Source: a virus. From it: 30,679 nucleotides of DNA. Both the position numbers and the translations under genes were made by a program. The DNA is taken from positions 1 to 30,679 of the IMG/VR virus record IMGVR_UViG_3300042870_000046; one strand, 5' to 3'. Below the pieces are notes generated by a model. The model worked only from the letters and a program-made list of their open reading frames with translations. It was not told the DNA's origin and did no database searches. How positions within the stretch are numbered: the stretch's first letter is position 1; the number at the start of each line of letters is the position of its first letter. Shown in pieces: positions 16,384-26,916 of the stretch.

Positions 16384-16640
16384 TGACAATGCAAGAAGAA
16401 ATTATTGATGTAGTCCCACAGACTCAGAAGATTAAGAAGAAGATTGCTGTGGATGGTGTTTGGGAAGACAGAATGTTCATTCGCATCCCTACTGGTCCAG
16501 AACGCATGGGCCCAGGCGAATTAGAAGTGTGGTGCCGCAAAAATTACGGCGCACCCCGCTATCTTAGTCCTTGGTTCAAAGTATCGGGATATATAATGCT
16601 TGACGAAAAAACATATGTGCATTGGAAGTTGTGTGAATGA
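16383..16640 (+). CDS. Tiny-ORF cassette member 7
   Basis: 85 residues from ATG 16383 (TAATG with the previous stop). It starts MTMQEEIIDVV, has a lysine-rich KIKKKIAVDG, then GPGELEVWCRKNYGAPRY matching the W-C-x-x-N block of members 1 and 5, and ends MLDEKTYVHWKLCE, a relaxed form of the terminal motif. The last 8 bases overlap the dioxygenase gene. Confidence 0.6.
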   Translation: MTMQEEIIDVVPQTQKIKKKIAVDGVWEDRMFIRIPTGPERMGPGELEVWCRKNYGAPRYLSPWFKVSGYIMLDEKTYVHWKLCE

Positions 16641-17322
16641 GTTAACTGAAGGCGAGGGATATCTATTCCTTGAGAACATTATACCTGACGACTTAATTGA
16701 TAGTATCAATAGTAAGTTAGATACCCTGTATCCTGTTAGAGCAACTAGCTCAGGCAAGACCTACGCAGAAGGTGATAAAATTAAAGACTTGCCTGACATT
16801 AGTTATTGGTGGAGTCAGATGGTTATGGATTGGCCAGAAGTAATCGCCGCCAATAATATATTGCTGCCGATTATAGGTGAGCAGCTAGATAATGCTGTAT
16901 TTTATGCCAGTGACATTGTAACAGTTAATGGTGATACTAAACTGGTAAATCCGCATGTTGACACTCCTCATAGATTCAAGCGATGGAATACAGATGAGCG
17001 ATTGTTAGGTGTACAGTGCATTATATCATTACAAGACACTACCCCTGAAATGGGAGCGACGGGTTATGTACCGAACAGTCATGAGCCTGATTGGGATATT
17101 GATTTGTGTTACAACGGTGCATACAACAAATATTTTTGGGACTTTCACGAACAGCAATACATGACTAAGGGCAGCGTACTAATGTACAACTGTAGATTGC
17201 TACATTCTAGTATGCCAAATTATTTACCCGAAAGTCGCCCAATGCTCTTGCTTAATTACCTAAACGGTGATATAGTGGAAGATGTTACAAAGCTAGATAA
17301 TTTTTGGAGTTCTAATGGCTAA
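16633..17322 (+). CDS. PhyH-type Fe(II)/2-oxoglutarate dioxygenase
   Basis: 229 residues from GTG 16633; ATG 16615 and ATG 16600 are in frame but lie in the previous gene, and MNELTEGEGYLFLENII looks like the usual PhyH start. The double-stranded beta-helix shows the iron site H-x-D in NPHVDTPH (His108, Asp110) and a distal His191 in LLHSSMPN, with the 2-oxoglutarate arginine in ESRPMLLLNY (Arg202). Such enzymes hydroxylate small molecules or modified bases; they are common in marine phages and the substrate here is unknown. It sits inside a long early operon with nucleotide-metabolism genes. Confidence 0.85.
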   Translation: MNELTEGEGYLFLENIIPDDLIDSINSKLDTLYPVRATSSGKTYAEGDKIKDLPDISYWWSQMVMDWPEVIAANNILLPIIGEQLDNAVFYASDIVTVNGDTKLVNPHVDTPHRFKRWNTDERLLGVQCIISLQDTTPEMGATGYVPNSHEPDWDIDLCYNGAYNKYFWDFHEQQYMTKGSVLMYNCRLLHSSMPNYLPESRPMLLLNYLNGDIVEDVTKLDNFWSSNG

Positions 17323-17869
17323 TCATATTATGATCGATATGGAAACACTCAGTACCGATGTTTCTACAGTAATACTTACAATTGGTGCTGTGCGTTTTGA
17401 CCCTCGCGGTGTCGGCGTAATTGAAAAACTTGAGCTTCGTCCAACTATGGAAGAACAGACTGAAATTTTCAATCGCACTATCAGCGATGACACGCTTCGC
17501 TGGTGGGGCGAACAGAGTCCCGAAGCTATCGAAGAAGCGATGGGCGACCGTGACCGTATCTCTTATAAGGAAGCAATGGAAAAGCTTTATCAGTTCTGCT
17601 GGAACCGCGGTGACAAAGTTTGGTCTAACGGATCCGGCTTTGATATCGTGATTGCAGAAAGCGCATTCCGTGACCATGACATGAAGTATCCTTGGCAGTT
17701 TTGGAATGTGCGTGATTGTCGCACTATCTATGACCTTGCTGGAGTCTCGTTGAAAGACGGTGGACATGTCACGAGCCACAAAGCAGTAGAAGATGCCGAG
17801 CGTCAGGCTATTGTTGTGCAGAAAGCTTATCAGAAACTTATTCAAGCAGGCATGACTCACATTCGATGA
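17315..17869 (+). CDS. DEDDh 3'-5' exonuclease, RNase AS/exonuclease VIII-like
   Basis: 184 residues. Exo I motif IMIDMETLS (Asp8, Glu10), Exo II SNGSGFDIVI (Asp110) and Exo III SHKAVEDAERQA (His155, Asp160) give a complete DEDDh set. The TISDDTLRWWGEQSPEA block is typical of the small phage and mycobacterial 3'-5' exoribonuclease (RNase AS) group. The substrate may be RNA 3' ends or ssDNA. It overlaps its neighbours by eight and four bases. T4 itself uses DexA for a comparable role; this is a different, shorter family. Confidence 0.85.
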   Translation: MANHIMIDMETLSTDVSTVILTIGAVRFDPRGVGVIEKLELRPTMEEQTEIFNRTISDDTLRWWGEQSPEAIEEAMGDRDRISYKEAMEKLYQFCWNRGDKVWSNGSGFDIVIAESAFRDHDMKYPWQFWNVRDCRTIYDLAGVSLKDGGHVTSHKAVEDAERQAIVVQKAYQKLIQAGMTHIR

Positions 17870-18441
17870 AAATTGATAGTGATATTGACATTGACTTAGG
17901 TGACCGCAACAAACTGCTAGCGGTCATCAAGCATGTCCCTGCTGCAATGAAAAATGTAGACCCTATACGAAAGCACCCTACAGGTGTTTACATCACTGAT
18001 ATTCCATATGATCCAATAAACAATATGTCTGCATTACATTATGTTGACGCAGAAAAACGAGGCTATTTTAAACTGGATTTGCTTAATGTTCATGTGTATG
18101 AACAAGTAAAAGATGAAAACCATTTAATAGAATTGATGGCCGAACCAGATTGGTCTATGCTGAAAGAACGCAGTACAGTGGAGAAACTTATACACTTGGG
18201 TAATTCGTATGACCTTATTCAACGAATGCCCGAACCAATCGATAGTATTCCTAGACTAGCAATGTTTCTTGCTGCAATTCGTCCTGCAAAGAGACACCTA
18301 TTGGGAAGAACTTTCAAAGAAATTAATGATACAGTGTGGGATAAGGATCACACTGGATACAGTTTTAAACGCAGCCACGCTGTAGCATATGCACAATTGG
18401 TTGTCGTACATATGAATCTATTAAGGGAAAAGAATGATTAA
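17866..18441 (+). CDS. Miniature DnaE/PolC (family C DNA polymerase)-like protein
   Basis: 191 residues that keep, in the right order, several signature segments of bacterial Pol III alpha: DSDIDIDLGDR (residues 4-14; like PDFDVDF...R, bearing the first two catalytic Asp), KHPTGVYI (36-43; like KHAGGVVI), GYFKLDLLNV (66-75; like GLVKFDFLGL, third catalytic Asp = Asp71), IPRLAMFLAAIRPA (128-141; like ALVALFRPG) and GYSFKRSHAVAYA (164-176; like GYGFNKSHSAAYA). The roughly 1000-residue polymerase is otherwise absent. T4-like phages replicate with a family B polymerase, so this is not the replicase. Activity and role are unknown. It overlaps by ATGA and eight bases with its neighbours. Confidence 0.7.
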   Translation: MKIDSDIDIDLGDRNKLLAVIKHVPAAMKNVDPIRKHPTGVYITDIPYDPINNMSALHYVDAEKRGYFKLDLLNVHVYEQVKDENHLIELMAEPDWSMLKERSTVEKLIHLGNSYDLIQRMPEPIDSIPRLAMFLAAIRPAKRHLLGRTFKEINDTVWDKDHTGYSFKRSHAVAYAQLVVVHMNLLREKND

Positions 18442-18967
18442 AGAATCTATTGTTGAAATTCCAAATTGGCCTGTAGAAGGTGTAAACTTTAAAGACCTCA
18501 GCAAAGTATTGACTAAGCCCGGCGATTTCCGATGGGCGCTAGATCGGTTTAAGATGTTTATGGCGGTCAATGAAGTTGAATGTATCGTTGCACCTGACGC
18601 ACGAGGGTTTATTTGGGGCGCACCTGTTGCTGCTGAACTTGAATTGCCATTTCATATGATTCGTAAGCCTGGCAAGCTACCGCCCCCAGTCATTAGCCAA
18701 TCATACGAGTATGAATATGATAGCGGAACACTAGAAATTAAAGGTGATACTGACATTGGTGAAGGTACTAGAGTTGGTATAATCGATGACGTTAATGCTA
18801 CCGGAGGGACAGCATTAGCAACTATTCAACTATTGAGCAGAATTGGCGTAAGACCGAAGGATATTTTTTATGCAAGTGTTATTGACCTCTCGTATCTCAA
18901 CGGGAGCAACAAGATTCGTGAAACAGGTACAACAGTTTTATCACTTGTATCATATGAATCTGATTAA
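18434..18967 (+). CDS. apt: Adenine phosphoribosyltransferase-like enzyme
   Basis: Salvages adenine with PRPP to AMP. 177 residues, the usual APRT size. Features: PDARGFIWGAPVA (54-66), the RKPGKLPPP loop (77-85) typical of APRT, and the PRPP-binding motif VGIIDDVNATGGTAL (114-128). Together with the MTA/SAH nucleosidase two genes later, which releases adenine, it would form a short adenine-recycling route during infection. It overlaps the preceding gene by eight bases. Confidence 0.9.
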   Translation: MIKESIVEIPNWPVEGVNFKDLSKVLTKPGDFRWALDRFKMFMAVNEVECIVAPDARGFIWGAPVAAELELPFHMIRKPGKLPPPVISQSYEYEYDSGTLEIKGDTDIGEGTRVGIIDDVNATGGTALATIQLLSRIGVRPKDIFYASVIDLSYLNGSNKIRETGTTVLSLVSYESD

Positions 18968-19157
18968 ATGGTTAGGTACAGCAGGCGTAATTATAGCAAC
19001 AATTCTTAGAGCATTTGGTTACCACACAGAAGATATGATTGTCGGGTTCATGGGAACCGCTTTATGGGCCTATGCTTCTTATGTAGAGCGTGACCGCGCA
19101 CTATTGACTTGCAACATCTTTATTCTCGCTGTTCTATTATATGGAATTTTTACATGA
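18954..19157 (+). CDS. Small membrane protein, paralogue of 7691-7969
   Basis: 67 residues from ATG 18954; the frame opens earlier, at 18870, inside apt, but MNLIKWLGTAGVII aligns with the paralogue, which supports the later start. Two or three hydrophobic spans: WLGTAGVIIATILRAFG, DMIVGFMGTALWAYASY and LTCNIFILAVLLYGIF. The motif KWLGTA...GxxxWAxASY repeats that of the 7691 gene. It lies between two metabolic enzymes and overlaps both (14 and four bases). Confidence 0.65.
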   Translation: MNLIKWLGTAGVIIATILRAFGYHTEDMIVGFMGTALWAYASYVERDRALLTCNIFILAVLLYGIFT

Positions 19158-19690
19158 ATGATATTATTTTATTAGCAATGCCCGAAGAAGCACCTAATCT
19201 TGTAGGCAAAGAAGGTGTATTCTTCACGGGTGTTGGTAAAGTAAACGCTGCTATTGTTGCTGCTACACTGATTGAACGATATAAGCCTAAGCGAGTTTTT
19301 AACTTCGGTACTGCTGGCGGCATAACTGCAACTCACGGAGGCATCTATAAGTGTACTACTTTTAATCAACGTGACGTTATCTTGGGCGGCTGCATTGTAG
19401 GACCGCAAGCAGAAATTCTACATCAACCTATTATAACAGGCGACGATGGCTGGTCACTGAGTACAGGTGACAATTTTGTAACTGACACCTATAATATCAA
19501 TGCTGATCTAGTTGATATGGAAGCGTTTGCTATCGCTAAAGCATGTCAAGTAGCAAATGTAGAATTCATTTGTCACAAGTATATCAGTGACATGGCTAAC
19601 GATGAAGCACCCGACCATTTTGTAGACCATGTCCATAAAGGTGAAGACCATTATATTGCTATTTTGAAAGAATACGGAGTACACCTGTGA
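19154..19690 (+). CDS. MTA/SAH nucleosidase-like (phosphorylase superfamily)
   Basis: 178 residues from ATG 19154 (ATGA overlap with the previous stop). Features of the PNP/UDP superfamily: N-terminal IILLAMPEEA with the Glu used in catalysis, GVGKVNAA (26-33), VFNFGTAGGI (48-57), VDMEAFAIAKAC (120-131, substrate-ribose Glu) and ISDMAND (144-150, with the catalytic-type Asp). It is shorter than the roughly 230-aa bacterial enzyme because loops are reduced. It would split 5'-methylthioadenosine or S-adenosylhomocysteine and free adenine for the nearby APRT. Substrate preference cannot be read from the sequence. Confidence 0.8.
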   Translation: MNDIILLAMPEEAPNLVGKEGVFFTGVGKVNAAIVAATLIERYKPKRVFNFGTAGGITATHGGIYKCTTFNQRDVILGGCIVGPQAEILHQPIITGDDGWSLSTGDNFVTDTYNINADLVDMEAFAIAKACQVANVEFICHKYISDMANDEAPDHFVDHVHKGEDHYIAILKEYGVHL

Positions 19691-21420: not shown

Positions 21421-22392
21421 ATGTTTGATATCCTAACCATTATTCCGGGAAAGAAGAAGCTTACCCAAAGCGGCTGGACAAGTTTCAACGCGGTCTGCTG
21501 TCATCACCGCGGGCACAAGGCTGACAAGAGAAGCAGAGCCGGTATTAGATTTGACGGCGAAAATTGGAGCTATCACTGTTTCAATTGTGATTTCAAAGCT
21601 GGCTTTCAGTTAGGAAAAAGTATCAGTCGTAACACAAGACAGTTACTTGAATGGTGCGGAATAGAACAGAATCAGATTTCTAAATGGAATATTGAAAGCC
21701 TACAGCAACGAGATTTGCTTGATATCATTAAGGTTCGCAAGGAAAAGAAGAAAGTAAAGTTCAAAGAACTTGAACTTCCTGATGCTGAACTTATTGACCC
21801 AAATAACGAGAAACACAAAGTATTCATAGATTATCTGCATGGTCGTGCGATTAAGTATGACGAATATCCTTTTATGGTTACTCCTAATGAACAAGGCAGA
21901 AACAACAACAGAATCATTGTTCCTTATACATTTGAAGGCAAGATGGTAGGGCACACAAGTAGATATCTTGATAACAGAACTCCTAAGTTCATTAAAGAGC
22001 AACAAACAGGATATGTATTTGGCTATGATTTTCAGAAGCCGAATTGGGAAGTTTGTTTAGTCGTTGAGGGTATCTTTGATGCCCTTTCAATTAACGCCTG
22101 TGCGCTAACCCATGATACAATAAGCGATGAGCAAGCAGAGATACTACGCAGACTTAATCGCAAGGTCATTGTTGTTCCGGACTTAGATAAGACTGGGCTA
22201 GCAATTTGTGACAGAGCATTGGAGTTGGGCTTTCATATTTCAATACCCAATTGGGATGACGGTATTAAAGACACGAATGATGCTGTGGTCAAGTATGGTA
22301 AATTGCCCACGCTATTGAGTATCTTACAGAACGCAACTAATAGTAAGATTAAATTAGAGTTACAAAGGAAGAAAATTGCTAAAAGAATATAA
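21421..22392 (+). CDS. 61: DNA primase (T4 gp61-like)
   Basis: Makes RNA primers for lagging-strand synthesis with gp41. 323 residues against 342 in T4. The N-terminal zinc ribbon shows CCHH (26-29) and CFNC (53-56); the TOPRIM-type core has VVEGIFDALS (Glu216) and VVPDLDKTG (Asp254, Asp256). The C-terminus is basic. ATG 21421 has no Shine-Dalgarno sequence and matches the predicted transcription start, so it is probably leaderless. It overlaps the helicase gene by 17 bases, and the two products act as one primosome. Confidence 0.93.
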   Translation: MFDILTIIPGKKKLTQSGWTSFNAVCCHHRGHKADKRSRAGIRFDGENWSYHCFNCDFKAGFQLGKSISRNTRQLLEWCGIEQNQISKWNIESLQQRDLLDIIKVRKEKKKVKFKELELPDAELIDPNNEKHKVFIDYLHGRAIKYDEYPFMVTPNEQGRNNNRIIVPYTFEGKMVGHTSRYLDNRTPKFIKEQQTGYVFGYDFQKPNWEVCLVVEGIFDALSINACALTHDTISDEQAEILRRLNRKVIVVPDLDKTGLAICDRALELGFHISIPNWDDGIKDTNDAVVKYGKLPTLLSILQNATNSKIKLELQRKKIAKRI

Positions 22393-23785
22393 CACAGAAG
22401 TACAACGACTATTCCTTCAAATGATGGTCACTAACGCGGAGCTTTATACCCGTGTAATGAATATCATGAATCCAGAAAACTTTGATCGTAGTCTTAGGAA
22501 TGTTGCGGAATTTATTGTTGAGCATACTGCAAAGTATAGCATTATGCCTGATCCTACGCAGATAAAAGCAACAACTAGTGAATCTATTGAACCTATTCAA
22601 GACTTGACTGATGGGCATTACGAATGGTTCTTAGAAGAATTCGAGTCATTCACTAAGCGTCAGGAGCTGGAGAGAGCTATTCTTAAAGCAGCAGATATGC
22701 TTGAAAAGGGTGAGTTTGATCCAGTTGAGCAACTAATCAAGAACGCTGTTCAAATCAGTCTACAGCGTGACATGGGTACAGATTACTTTGCTGACCCTAA
22801 GGATCGATTGAACAAATATTTCAATGCAGGTGGTCAGGTGTCTACTGGTTGGCCTCAGCTTGATAGAGTCATGTACGGTGGTATGAGTCGCGGGGAACTC
22901 AACATCTTTGCAGGTGGCTCTGGTTCTGGTAAATCTCTCGTCATGATGAATATCGCCCTTAATTGGCTTAAGCAGGGACTTAGCGGAGTCTACATCACTC
23001 TTGAACTTAGTGAAGAACTTACTTCGCTGCGTACTGATGCCATGCTCACAAATATGAGTACAAGAGACATTCGTAAAAATATGGATGACACTGAACTCAG
23101 AGTTAAGATGGCAGGAAAGAAAATGGGGCAGTATCGTGTTAAGGGCCTGCCTGCACAAAGTAATGTCAATGCTATTCGTAGTTATATTAAAGAAGTTCAA
23201 ATTCAGACTGGTCTAAAAGTTGATTTCGTGATGATTGATTATCTTGATCTTGTCATGCCAGTCAGTGTTAAAGTCAATCCAAACGACCAGTTCATTAAGG
23301 ACAAGTATGTATCAGAAGAACTTCGCAATTTGGCAAAAGAGCTAGGCGTTCTATTGATTACTGCATCGCAGTTAAATCGTTCAGCAGTTGAAGAAATCGA
23401 ATTCGATCACAGTCACATTGCAGGTGGTATTTCTAAGATTAATACTGCTGACTATGTGTTTGGTATCTTCACAAGTCGTAGTATGCGTGAACGCGGCAAG
23501 TATCAGATTCAGTGCATGAAGTCTCGTAGTTCAACTGGTGTCGGGCAAAAGATCGACCTTGAATATAACATCGAAACTATGCGTATTACTGATGAGGATC
23601 CAGAAGAAGGTAGACAGCAGCCGTCCCCAAATCAGATTTTAAGCCAAATTAAGACTACTAGCCAAGTAGGTTCTACTAACGAAGTAGTACACAGTACGAT
23701 TGGTCAATCGGAAAATAGAGTAGTAGCAGATGTAAATGGCGCAAAATTAAAGTCTTTATTGAGTTCACTTAAGAAACAAAATTAA
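22376..23785 (+). CDS. 41: Replicative DnaB-type helicase (T4 gp41-like)
   Basis: Hexameric 5'-3' helicase of the replication fork. 469 residues against 475 in T4. An N-terminal helical collar is followed by the RecA-like motor: STGWPQLDRVMYGGM, Walker A GGSGSGKS (180-187), TLELSEE, Walker B FVMIDYLDL (284-292), the ITASQLNRS segment (motif III) and an arginine-finger region near CMKSRSSTG. The tail after EDPEEGRQQP is probably flexible. The start is TTG 22376 with AAAGGAAG just upstream, inside the primase end; no ATG fits as well. Confidence 0.95.
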   Translation: MLKEYNTEVQRLFLQMMVTNAELYTRVMNIMNPENFDRSLRNVAEFIVEHTAKYSIMPDPTQIKATTSESIEPIQDLTDGHYEWFLEEFESFTKRQELERAILKAADMLEKGEFDPVEQLIKNAVQISLQRDMGTDYFADPKDRLNKYFNAGGQVSTGWPQLDRVMYGGMSRGELNIFAGGSGSGKSLVMMNIALNWLKQGLSGVYITLELSEELTSLRTDAMLTNMSTRDIRKNMDDTELRVKMAGKKMGQYRVKGLPAQSNVNAIRSYIKEVQIQTGLKVDFVMIDYLDLVMPVSVKVNPNDQFIKDKYVSEELRNLAKELGVLLITASQLNRSAVEEIEFDHSHIAGGISKINTADYVFGIFTSRSMRERGKYQIQCMKSRSSTGVGQKIDLEYNIETMRITDEDPEEGRQQPSPNQILSQIKTTSQVGSTNEVVHSTIGQSENRVVADVNGAKLKSLLSSLKKQN

Positions 23786-23825: not shown

Positions 23826-24065
23826 ATGCAAAAGAAAACAAAAAGTCTTTTAGAAGAACTCCAATCCTTTGGAGACATCCGTGACATCAACAACATTATA
23901 GAAAACCGTGCTTCTAATATTATTACTAGTGCCATAAACTTAATTGAATTGATGCAGAAAAACTATCCTTCAGATAAAGCTGAATTACTTGAGAAGAAAT
24001 TGCTAAGTGCAATTAAAAGTAAAGATCAAGATAGATTTACTAAATCCTTGAGGAAAAAGAAATGA
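23826..24065 (+). CDS. Small late protein, 79 aa, virion or head-core type
   Basis: 79 residues, helical and basic, starting MQKKTKSLLEELQSFG and ending KDQDRFTKSLRKKK. No domain is recognised. It follows a late box and is the first gene of a four-gene late operon. Its stop overlaps the next start (ATGA). Similar small proteins occur near structural genes in marine T4-like phages; a role in head assembly is only a guess. Confidence 0.65.
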   Translation: MQKKTKSLLEELQSFGDIRDINNIIENRASNIITSAINLIELMQKNYPSDKAELLEKKLLSAIKSKDQDRFTKSLRKKK

Positions 24066-24910
24066 ACTTAACCGAGCTTAATAAAATTGAAGAAGGAAGA
24101 TTTGCCGACGCCGCTAAGAGCATGGTCCCTGGAATCAGGGGATTAGTGAGTGGCCAAGGAAAGAATCAAACTAAGGTTCAAGACATTTTTATTAAAGATT
24201 TCGTGCAAGACGCAACAACCTCATTGAAGAATGGTCTTGCGGGCGGGCTAATTCAACTACCTCAGAAGACTTCGGGCGCTCCTGCTGATACTCCGCCAGC
24301 CGCTAGCACTCCTGCTACTCCGTCCGCGCCGCCGCCCGCTGCCAATCCTAAGGCGCCGGCCGAAAAACAGCCATACAAGTGGGCCCCTAAGGGAATGAAA
24401 GTAAATCCTGATACTAAACTAAGTAGCCTAGGAGCAACCGGCGATTTAGCAGAATCTAAATATGAAAATTTGAATAAAATATTTGAAAGCATCGTAAACA
24501 TTGATGAGCAAGCCGATGTGATGTCCATGTCTGATTATTTGATGAGTTGGTTCTCTCAGTATATGCAAGGTGTAGCATGGGAAGGAAGTAAAGCCATCGT
24601 AAAAAATAAGATTGATGCTTTTGTAAAAGATTATCCTGCTAAGCAATATGATCATCTAACAAATTTAGCACGAACTGCATTAGCTCTCTCGAAAGCTGCT
24701 ACACCTGCCGGTGCCCCTAAAGAATTTACACAGATGAGACAAACATCAGGGCAAGATGTGCAGCAAGGATATGAAGAAATTAAAGCTGCATTAGATGAGC
24801 TAGCAAAAATTAATCCTGATCTGTATAACAAGTTCATCAAAACATTGCGTCCTGTAGCAGCACAGCCTGGTGCTAGCGCGGGTCTCGTTGAACAAAAGAA
24901 ACGCAAATGA
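24062..24910 (+). CDS. Late protein with Pro/Ala linker, probably virion-associated
   Basis: 282 residues. The N-terminal 70 residues are followed by a proline/alanine-rich linker (73-102, with ASTPATPSAPPPAANPKAP), then a helical C-terminal part with YMQGVAWEGSKAIV and ALDELAKINPDLYNKFIKTL. The order suggests two domains joined by a flexible tether. GAGGAAAAAG precedes the ATG. The linker DNA is markedly richer in G+C than its surroundings. The function is unknown; late operon position and tether fit a virion component. Confidence 0.65.
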   Translation: MNLTELNKIEEGRFADAAKSMVPGIRGLVSGQGKNQTKVQDIFIKDFVQDATTSLKNGLAGGLIQLPQKTSGAPADTPPAASTPATPSAPPPAANPKAPAEKQPYKWAPKGMKVNPDTKLSSLGATGDLAESKYENLNKIFESIVNIDEQADVMSMSDYLMSWFSQYMQGVAWEGSKAIVKNKIDAFVKDYPAKQYDHLTNLARTALALSKAATPAGAPKEFTQMRQTSGQDVQQGYEEIKAALDELAKINPDLYNKFIKTLRPVAAQPGASAGLVEQKKRK

Positions 24911-25773
24911 TTAGATTAACTGAAGGTGGCGCAATGGCGGGCGTGGGAGCTATCCATGCTGATGAGATTGGACCCACTTTGGATAAGTTAGAAAAGATTT
25001 TAGGCATTGACCTCAAAAACAATACGCTCGGCAGTGTAGGTAAAAAAGAGTTTTCCGGTGACATTGATATTGCACTAGATATAAAAACTGAGGATCTTCC
25101 TGCGTTTGTAAAGAAGCTTGAAAGTATTCCTGAGGTACTTGACATTGCTAAAAGCTCAGTAATCATGACTAAGGTTAAGATTGCTGATTACGATCCTAAC
25201 AAAAAAGTAGAGGGTAAGCCAAGAACAGGCTATGTTCAGGTAGACTTCATGCCCGGCGATCCGGGTTGGTTGAAGACATTTTATCATGCTCCTCACGAGA
25301 AAGACAGTAAGTATAAGGGTGTTTTTAGAAATATTCTTATGTCTAGCATTGCAGCACATTTGGATCGTAAAGACTCGGCACAGAAAATCAGTGATGGCAG
25401 ACCGATGCAGTCTGAAAGATACATGTGGAGCCCCACAGACGGATTGATTAAGGTATTAAGAACTCCTGAACCTAATAAGAAGGGTGACGGATACACTAAA
25501 AAGAATAACAACAAAATCATTGATGGTCCATACAAGAATCCGGATGAGATTGCAAAAGTTCTACAGCTAGACTCTGCTGATGATTTATATTCATACGAAA
25601 CACTACGCAAAGCAATGGATAAAAATTATCCATCTGAATTAGTTAATGCTATGCTTAAAGACTTTGCAGAAAATTCGGTAATTAAAGATATCGGAGTCCC
25701 GACTGACATCAAACTTAGTGAGAGTGTGGGAACAGGTGATTGGTTCAGAACACTGTTGGATATCGTAAAATGA
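24907..25773 (+). CDS. Nucleotidyltransferase-like protein (Pol beta superfamily motif)
   Basis: 288 residues. A Pol beta-type signature is seen: LGSVGKKEFSGDIDIALD (41-58), i.e. G-S followed by D-x-D (Asp52, Asp54), and a third acidic position in YVQVDFMPGD (Asp113). The C-terminal half holds YMWSPTDGLIKVL and a lysine-rich stretch. Such enzymes add nucleotides to RNA, protein or small molecules; the substrate is unknown. It overlaps by four bases with both neighbours, next to a ligase-fold protein, which suggests a two-step reaction. Late expression is inferred from the operon promoter. Confidence 0.75.
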   Translation: MIRLTEGGAMAGVGAIHADEIGPTLDKLEKILGIDLKNNTLGSVGKKEFSGDIDIALDIKTEDLPAFVKKLESIPEVLDIAKSSVIMTKVKIADYDPNKKVEGKPRTGYVQVDFMPGDPGWLKTFYHAPHEKDSKYKGVFRNILMSSIAAHLDRKDSAQKISDGRPMQSERYMWSPTDGLIKVLRTPEPNKKGDGYTKKNNNKIIDGPYKNPDEIAKVLQLDSADDLYSYETLRKAMDKNYPSELVNAMLKDFAENSVIKDIGVPTDIKLSESVGTGDWFRTLLDIVK

Positions 25774-26861
25774 GAATATCAGAAGTTCTACACGAATCAA
25801 TTCTATTAGAAGCTAAAAATCCTCGTACTCCTCACCCTGAGGACTCCGTATTTAATGGCATCGGTGCTGCGAGAGACGCAGTTAATTCTATGTATTATGT
25901 CATAGAAAATCCAGAAACACTCACTATCAAGTGGGATGGCTTCCCTGCTCTTATCTTTGGCTATAATGATAAAGGACAATTCACTGTATCAGACAAGTAC
26001 ATGTTTGACAAGGGCCAAGAATATCTTGGTACAAGTCCAAAGTTTTGGCAAGAGTATGATGCTAGTAGAGGCAAGAGCCGCCCTGACCTATACCCAAAGT
26101 TGAACAGTATTTGGAATGGATTGAAAGCCGCAGTAGGTAGTAGCAAAGGTTTCTTTTGGGGAGACTTAATGTGGGCAGATCAACTACAGAATCAAAATGG
26201 TAAGCTCGTATTCAAGCCCAATACCGTAACTTATGCTATTCCCGTTAACAGTGACTTAGGTAAAACTATTGCTAGCACAAAGGGCGGCGTTGCAGTTCAC
26301 CAATATTTCTCAGACATTACATCAACACCGAGTCCTTGGAATAGTCAAGGGCTAGCGGGCAATAGAGAGGTTGCTATTCTTACTCCTAATATGGGAATAG
26401 AGTTCGCATTGTCTGCTCCGAAAGGTGAAGTCTCTAAAGTTAATAGAGCATTAGCACAGAACAGCCAACTAGACGCATTCTTAGGTGGTATGGATGGTGT
26501 TGCTAGAGCAGCATTGCAGAAATACTTAGGACATATTGCTACTAATCAGACTGACCTTCCTATTGAACAATGGCTACAAAATAATGTAAGCGCAAAGCAA
26601 TATCGTTTCTTGATCGGTGACGGTGATGGATATCTTGTTCAGAACAAAGAACAGCTTGACGCATTATTTGAACTATATTTTGCGATAGCAGGTCTTAAGA
26701 ATAACTTAGCCAATCAATTAGAAAATCAAGTACAAGGCGTAGAACAGTCAATCAATGATAGACCCGGCGGTGAAGGATTTGTATTCAATACACCTAACGG
26801 ACTAGTCAAATTAGTCAATCGCGGTGGCTTTAGTGCTGCTCATTTTGGTAAAAAAAAGTAA
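25770..26861 (+). CDS. KxDG-motif covalent nucleotidyltransferase-like (ligase-fold) protein
   Basis: 363 residues from ATG 25770 (ATGA overlap); an ATG at 25740 is rejected because it lies inside the previous gene. Motifs of the ligase/capping superfamily are present: I TIKWDGFPAL (Lys54-Trp-Asp-Gly57), III GFFWGDLMW (127-135), IV EGFVF (335-339) and V VKLV (346-349), in the proper order. It is not similar by eye to T4 DNA ligase or Rnl1/Rnl2. I believe it belongs to a marine-phage family listed as DUF6267. Substrate unknown: RNA, DNA or protein nucleotidylation are all possible. Confidence 0.75.
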   Translation: MRISEVLHESILLEAKNPRTPHPEDSVFNGIGAARDAVNSMYYVIENPETLTIKWDGFPALIFGYNDKGQFTVSDKYMFDKGQEYLGTSPKFWQEYDASRGKSRPDLYPKLNSIWNGLKAAVGSSKGFFWGDLMWADQLQNQNGKLVFKPNTVTYAIPVNSDLGKTIASTKGGVAVHQYFSDITSTPSPWNSQGLAGNREVAILTPNMGIEFALSAPKGEVSKVNRALAQNSQLDAFLGGMDGVARAALQKYLGHIATNQTDLPIEQWLQNNVSAKQYRFLIGDGDGYLVQNKEQLDALFELYFAIAGLKNNLANQLENQVQGVEQSINDRPGGEGFVFNTPNGLVKLVNRGGFSAAHFGKKK

Positions 26862-26902: not shown

Positions 26903-26916
26903 TGAGCTTCGGCTCA
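26903..26916 (+). promoter_or_regulatory. 5'-terminal UUCG hairpin of a late mRNA
   Basis: TGAGC (26903-26907), loop TTCG, GCTCA (26912-26916). It would sit at or within one or two bases of the 5' end of the transcript, a place where stems block RppH/RNase E entry and stabilise mRNA. AAGGA (26924-26928) follows as ribosome-binding site. Confidence 0.65.

Follow-up and report, generated by a model that had tools for sequence, protein, structure and literature searches.

Several known systems join a nucleotide-adding or end-healing enzyme to a ligase, among them T4 Pnkp-Rnl1, other RNA-repair pairs and the kinetoplastid RET2-REL editing pair. Phages are known to inject proteins that modify the host RNA polymerase or inhibit restriction, some eukaryotic viruses have virion-carried repair enzymes, and African swine fever virus has a minimal viral PolX. 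Phage T4 packages Alt and its internal proteins through N-terminal capsid-targeting sequences of 10-19 residues, which are removed by gp21 after L/I-X-E (PMC9026906; PMC5694885). Polyvalent ejected proteins, as far as the accessible part of their description goes (Iyer 2017, PMC5512222), are multi-enzyme cargo that includes Pol beta nucleotidyltransferases (NTases), ADP-ribosyltransferases (ARTs), kinases and GNATs; neither an NTase-ligase pair nor DUF6267 is described in that part. Here we analyzed two adjoining genes, NT and LIG, in the IMG/VR virus record IMGVR_UViG_3300042870_000046, whose whole 30,679 nt (30.7 kb) are called the window. NT encodes a DNA polymerase X-like NTase and LIG a DUF6267 protein with a predicted RNA-ligase-type core. 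The two are probably carried in the phage head.

The two open reading frames (ORFs) occupy 24907-26861 and overlap by four bases (ATGA), as had been reported in a first-pass annotation of this DNA. That annotation had assigned them by their motifs to the Pol beta and covalent nucleotidyltransferase superfamilies, and these motifs are all present and conserved (Table 1). In NT they are G42-S43...G51-D52-I-D54 and Q111-V-D113, which correspond to the GS...[D/E]xD and third acidic residue of the Pol beta superfamily. The D-x-D, whose loss in homologues would have spoken against the assignment, is kept throughout the alignment of diverse NTs, and so is Q111 (73/73). As the motifs of NT and LIG are near-invariant across 73 and 79 diverse relatives, they are not due to chance. 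The ratio of nonsynonymous to synonymous substitution rates (dN/dS), calculated against homologues of 79-98% identity, was 0.02-0.05 for NT and 0.04-0.10 for LIG. Together with the invariant motifs, these values indicate that both genes evolve under strong purifying selection and that their active-site residues are intact.

To the AlphaFold2 model of NT, with a mean predicted local distance difference test (pLDDT) score of 93.4, Foldseek matched DNA polymerases beta and lambda (E 5.6e-5, probability 1.00). VIA aligned residues 1-231 with residues 333-575 of pol lambda (Z 10.0, 181 residues covering palm and thumb, 4.0 Å). The motifs thus sit on a palm fold, and the palm and thumb are arranged as in DNA polymerase family X. 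A DNA polymerase beta/lambda-like fold of NT is therefore well supported by the model, and the superfamily assignment of the first-pass annotation holds. CCA-adding and other NTase families were absent from the structure matches listed. Unlike pol beta and pol lambda, NT is predicted to lack the lyase domain, has extra C-terminal helices and is paired with or fused to a ligase. By sequence profile NT is not placed in family X, since it had no Pfam match at E<=1; it also had no significant PHROG match. NCBIfam gave no meaningful match among the proteins tried.

LIG belongs to Pfam DUF6267 (PF19782; E 3.5e-34, 119.2 bits against a cut-off of 27, residues 22-363 on 6-376 of 376) and also matches PHROG 455 (phrog_455). 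Neither family has an assigned function, and no paper on DUF6267 function was found by full-text search. The family is widespread in T4-like cyanophages; 465 phage records match the copy of cyanophage S-CAM9. LIG carries, in order, motif I (K54-W-D-G57), a motif III-like G131-D132-L, motif IV (E335-G-F-V-F) and motif V (V346-K347-L-V349) of the covalent nucleotidyltransferase (ligase/capping) superfamily, with Asp in motif III and a single Lys in motif V. Its H-x-E-D motif is also seen in the ligases of PA5oct type described below. The AlphaFold2 model has a mean pLDDT of 93.6. When it was compared with VIA, the best 48 entries were all nucleic-acid ligases (Z 8.4 to 4.8), and unrelated folds appeared from Z 4.6. 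The top matches were Naegleria RNA ligase (Z 8.4, 182 residues, 3.7 Å) and T. brucei REL1 (Z 7.5). Structure prediction, which the first-pass annotation had proposed as a check on both proteins, gave LIG an adenylyltransferase-domain fold, whose absence would have spoken against the assignment. An RNA-ligase-type adenylyltransferase core is well supported on the modelled structure. LIG resembles the nick-sealing RNA ligases (Naegleria Rnl, T. brucei REL1, T4 Rnl2/PF09414) in this core, with KxDG, the acidic motif III-like residue, EG and Lys in the same order. It differs from them by a large helical insertion (residues ~205-325) before motif IV, by the Asp in motif III, by the single motif V Lys and by a chain that stops after motif V; apart from the insertion it is the bare core. 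LIG did not match Pfam RNA_ligase (PF09414) and is therefore not a member of RNA_ligase proper.

Two further observations concern the ligase gene. In loci L069-L072 (e.g. L071:8001-10000), NT is 77-78% identical to that of the window and the flanks are mostly 60-82% identical, whereas DUF6267 in this slot has no more than 27-29% identity, which looks like a swap of the ligase gene for a distant version. Immediately downstream of an NT-like gene, locus L049:7059-9008 encodes a 650-aa protein with tandem ligase-type domains, KVDG...EGLVL followed by KWDG...EGFVV.

The adjacency of NT and LIG is kept in relatives. Among all 58 NT clusters, NT was fused to DUF6267 in 17, adjacent to it in 17 and within 3.5 kb in 9; a second ligase subfamily was found in 8, no ligase in 6, and 1 was undetermined. 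Because LIG itself had found some of these loci, the linkage was recounted from NT-only queries. In the 57 determinable clusters of this count, a ligase accompanied NT in 42 (23 adjacent, 8 fused, 3 nearby and 8 with the other ligase). In the fusions, exemplified by a 617-aa protein at L042:7182-9032, the joint gene occupies the same slot, with a small virion-protein gene on one side and the same downstream gene on the other.

The second ligase subfamily has KxDG and is not recognised as DUF6267. It adjoins NT in the jumbo phages PA5oct, Atu_ph07 and Phosso and in five IMG/VR contigs. Its homology to DUF6267 was detected with hhalign (probability 96.8, E 3e-10), and the two have the motifs H-x-E-D, KxDG, EG and K in common. 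Five of six members match Pfam RNA_ligase (E 1.4e-4 to 0.085), the best at 22.5 bits against a cut-off of 27. A BFVD structure search links LIG to the PA5oct and Atu_ph07 proteins, and the Atu_ph07 member is named RNA ligase in UniProt. As judged from these gene arrangements, the fusions and the parallel pairing with a second RNA-ligase subfamily show that the NT-ligase pairing proposed in the first-pass annotation is real. The partnership is strong, not obligatory.

DUF6267 has another partner in T4-like cyanophages, where it adjoins a HIGH-type cytidylyltransferase and, in S-PM2, is fused to it. At L244:7007-9349, on a 221-kb contig, NT, RNA-ligase-like and HIGH-type (CTP_transf_like) genes stand in a row and represent three unrelated nucleotidyltransferase folds.

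A second NTase-like family ('GGWDTTLTQ...YGDIDLQM') lies between NT and DUF6267 or nearby at L035:943-1953, L142:2941-3966, L197:3696-4712 and L037:6658-7992; the L035 copy had no PHROG or NCBIfam match. In another phage group (L076-L093, L204, L207 and L241), NT occurs without a ligase. There it either adjoins a protein of 800-1400 aa that has a HIGH-type motif near its N-terminus or is fused behind a domain 'LEIFADRLFAKVGIDVEFTRHFLDRVND'. The Prevotella Lak megaphage Lak-B6 has an NT homologue (L279:6866-7840) with no KxDG neighbour within 7 kb on either side. A cellular origin of the pair was considered and rejected, with only one match in 84,980 species genomes. This match lies on a 5.6-kb contig of a Planctomycetota metagenome-assembled genome, which we read as a stray phage contig because its gene context is that of the L076-type phages.

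The N-termini of both proteins resemble those of T4-type internal head proteins in having a short peptide followed by L/I-X-E, a likeness of sequence only. Residues 1-6 of the NT model and 1-17 of the LIG model have pLDDT below 50, the latter being predicted as disordered. The [LI]xE-GG start was found in 51 of 77 distinct NT ORFs, and a slightly looser pattern occurred 11 times in 26,585 residues elsewhere in these ORFs. In the 20 residues that precede the LIG core, [LI]xE was present in 55/61 free and 19/19 NT-fused proteins, compared with 7-10% for equal windows elsewhere. With M[KRN]xx[EDQ][LIVFM] as the targeting-like pattern, 141 of 626 distinct proteins encoded downstream of the helicase gene started in this way, compared with 5 of 212 upstream (~1.5% expected; Fisher p 3e-14); as in the other N-terminal motif tests, the sequences are related and are not independent events. 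Since [LI]xE precedes the core in all 19 fused proteins, the NT-DUF6267 fusions look like polyproteins that a prohead protease could split.

The PA5oct NT homologue EST35_0231 was detected in virions by electrospray ionisation tandem mass spectrometry (ESI-MS/MS). Around EST35_0231, 14 of 22 genes were flagged by mass spectrometry (MS), compared with 21/63 and 23/59 features in the flanking 50-kb stretches. In cyanophage S-CREM2 a cytidylyltransferase was found in virions (PMC10665884); it is the partner type fused to DUF6267 in S-PM2. The [LI]xE sites, the targeting-like starts and the detection of PA5oct NT in virions lead us to regard the pair as cargo that is probably packaged in the head and ejected; packaging in the head is moderately supported. 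The first-pass annotation had also linked the pair to the virion, through a step in packaging, virion assembly or late defence. The capsid-targeting-like N-termini and prohead-protease-type sites suggest that the proteins travel in the head and are delivered into the next cell, and a role in packaging or late defence in the producing cell is less supported. The pair shares with the T4 internal head proteins and Alt the short N-terminal peptide, the L/I-X-E site and the delivery model (PMC9026906). It differs in that NT and LIG are different enzymes and the peptide only resembles that of T4, the NT peptide being 6 aa compared with 10-19.

Beside NT or the ligase, we also saw tandem ADP-ribosyltransferase-like paralogues, recognised by eye, with capsid-targeting-like starts (L119:9576-14508 in Atu_ph07, L030:6482-8001 and L031:6092-6844). 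The L031 copy matches phrog_12810, a family without assigned function.

The computation established the genes and their folds, the conservation of the active sites and of the [LI]xE sites, and a linkage of the two genes that is both physical and evolutionary; packaging, ejection, catalysis and substrate are inferred. Our preferred but tentative reading, which we hold at somewhat less than even confidence, is that NT and LIG form an extend-and-seal unit for broken nucleic acid that is packaged in the head and ejected into the next host. A palm-thumb polymerase X-like enzyme joined to a ligase core is the arrangement expected for filling or extending and then sealing a break. NT would extend a 3' end, or fill a short gap, with nucleotides. 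LIG would take up AMP on its own Lys54, then activate a 5' phosphate and ligate the ends. The two proteins would probably be made late, drawn into the prohead by their short N-terminal targeting peptides and trimmed by the prohead protease after [LI]xE. They would then be ejected with the genome and act in the next host before phage gene expression. The unit may mend the genome of the phage, host tRNAs that defence nucleases have cut, or another substrate. A broader version, which we regard as rather doubtful, is that large T4-like phages carry an in-head fill-and-seal kit, composed of a minimal polymerase X-like enzyme and a DUF6267 ligase and sometimes made as a protease-split polyprotein, that mends a damaged genome or defence-cut host RNA at entry, before any phage gene expression.

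Several results weigh against the extend-and-seal cargo. Fifteen of the 57 NT clusters have no ligase, some DUF6267 loci have no NT, and the HIGH-type partner of DUF6267 has no obvious role in an extend-and-seal pathway. The PA5oct ligase-like EST35_0228 was not detected by virion MS, and the PA5oct MS list includes likely contaminants (ribonucleotide reductase, FtsH and DNA ligase). In PA5oct, proteins detected by MS did not have the N-terminal motif significantly more often (4/52 compared with 3/86, p 0.43). For LIG, Foldseek alone was weak (archaeal RNA ligase, E 0.23), the best VIA score of Z 8.4 is close to the level of unrelated folds, the second motif V lysine is absent, and no OB fold or similar partner domain was identified. 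Profile searches with NT or LIG against PDB sequences gave no significant match to a solved polymerase or ligase; the best for NT, below significance, was pol lambda (E 0.15-0.76).

An unlikely alternative that still deserves weight is RNA repair, in which a host abortive-infection nuclease cuts tRNA of the host or the phage, or some other RNA, and the pair restores and rejoins it. NT would extend the ends and LIG would act as a genuine RNA ligase; the pair would arrive with the DNA or be produced late. LIG comes closest in fold to Naegleria Rnl, T. brucei REL1 and Trl1, which are all RNA ligases, the second ligase subfamily has matches to both RNA_ligase and RNA_lig_T4_1, and the UniProt name of the Atu_ph07 member agrees. 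However, LIG scores only slightly lower against DNA ligases (Z up to 6.7), and among the top matches listed NT is nearest to polymerases beta and lambda, not to CCA-adding or poly(A) enzymes. In the loci inspected, no polynucleotide kinase/phosphatase or 2',3'-cyclic phosphate enzyme adjoins the pair. The known RNA-repair pairs differ from NT/LIG on this point, in the type of NTase and in the possible virion delivery.

We consider it quite unlikely that both enzymes are head-packaged modifiers that move nucleoside monophosphates onto host proteins or small molecules, like ejected ARTs, kinases and acetyltransferases. This explanation was kept because, in the accessible part of PMC5512222, Pol beta-superfamily NTases among the polyvalent ejected proteins are predicted protein modifiers, and because neighbours in the same slot resemble ARTs (L030, L031, L181 and Atu_ph07), a kinase and an acetyltransferase by inspection. 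The pairing of DUF6267 with HIGH-type nucleotidyltransferases also fits it. However, these neighbours were called by eye and the ART-like and kinase-like proteins have no Pfam match, and a thumb-bearing polymerase-type NTase that is the conserved partner of a ligase core, or is fused to one, typically points to repair of gaps or ends in nucleic acids and not to protein modification. It is improbable that NT and LIG are ordinary, unpackaged replication or recombination accessories expressed with the primase and helicase, their [LI]xE peptides being disordered linkers conserved for other reasons: the genes do follow primase and helicase, EST35_0228 was not seen in virions and the PA5oct motif comparison was not significant (4/52 and 3/86), but [LI]xE is kept before the core even within fusions and targeting-like starts are about ten-fold enriched downstream of the helicase.

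Ejected enzyme cargo is already known; an NTase-ligase pair as such cargo, proposed here from sequence, appears new. In the searchable literature, whose coverage is partial so that absence is not proven, we found no description of this pair as cargo, of a ligase-type fold for DUF6267 or of NT-DUF6267 fusions. DUF6267/phrog_455, of which LIG is a member, is here tied to an RNA-ligase fold and an NTase partner. The fold assignment, the fusion partner and the predicted processing site make this widespread, unexplained family of marine T4-like phages accessible to direct biochemistry. If the pair is truly ejected, nucleic-acid repair would join the injected phage functions and would parallel the virion-carried repair enzymes of some eukaryotic viruses.

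Table 1. Positions of the NT and LIG genes, their motifs and neighbouring features in the window
Feature	Position	Strand	Basis or conservation
NT, DNA polymerase X-like (Pol beta superfamily) nucleotidyltransferase, palm and thumb	24907..25773	+	288 aa; ORF and structure
NT L4-T5-E6, [LI]xE before G7-G8, putative prohead-protease-type site	24916..24924	+	sequence
NT catalytic D52-x-D54	25060..25068	+	73/73 in alignment
NT third catalytic Asp, D113	25243..25245	+	72/73 in alignment
LIG, DUF6267 protein with predicted RNA-ligase-type adenylyltransferase core	25770..26861	+	363 aa (start ATG 25770); Pfam and structure
LIG N-terminus MRISEVLHESILLE, capsid-targeting-like, with two [LI]xE sites whose last residues are E9 and E14	25770..25811	+	sequence
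LIG H22-x-E24-D25, start of folded core	25833..25844	+	H, E 78/79 (one gap); D 76/79
LIG motif I K54-W-D-G57; Lys54 is predicted to accept AMP	25929..25940	+	K54, D56, G57 79/79
LIG D132 in GDL, resembling motif III; Glu in classical ligases	26163..26165	+	79/79
LIG motif IV E335-G336	26772..26777	+	79/79
LIG motif V K347	26808..26810	+	K 79/79; Val349 replaces second Lys of classical KxK (V 74, I 5)
Primase gene, upstream of the pair	21421-22392
DnaB-type helicase gene, upstream of the pair	22376-23785
Small conserved protein between helicase and pair	23826..24065	+	PHROG match phrog_11854 'virion structural protein'
282-aa late-type protein upstream of NT, capsid-targeting-like start MNLTELNKIEE	24062..24910	+	
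Hairpin with T-rich tail, terminator-like, just 3' of LIG	26903..26916	+	consensus match only

The window matches a T4-type terminase, a gp32-like protein, a primase and a DnaB-type helicase, and is therefore regarded as a fragment of a T4-like phage; its close relatives were found on contigs up to 267 kb. The pair lies ~1.1 kb downstream of the primase and helicase genes, which contradicts the earlier statement that it does not stand with replication genes. The phrog_11854 protein marks the NT/LIG slot: many relatives keep it upstream of these genes, and PA5oct has a counterpart recognised from its position and likeness. The 282-aa protein that follows it is a candidate for further cargo or a core protein, judging from its start. 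The T4-type late promoter TATAAATA occurs twice in the window, compared with 2.6 expected by chance, and not upstream of the pair; sigma-70-like sites in the window were not above chance frequency. At 16600-19690 the window holds a metabolic cluster with adjoining matches to a PhyH-type oxygenase, an Rv2179c-like exoribonuclease, a phosphoribosyltransferase and a nucleoside phosphorylase.

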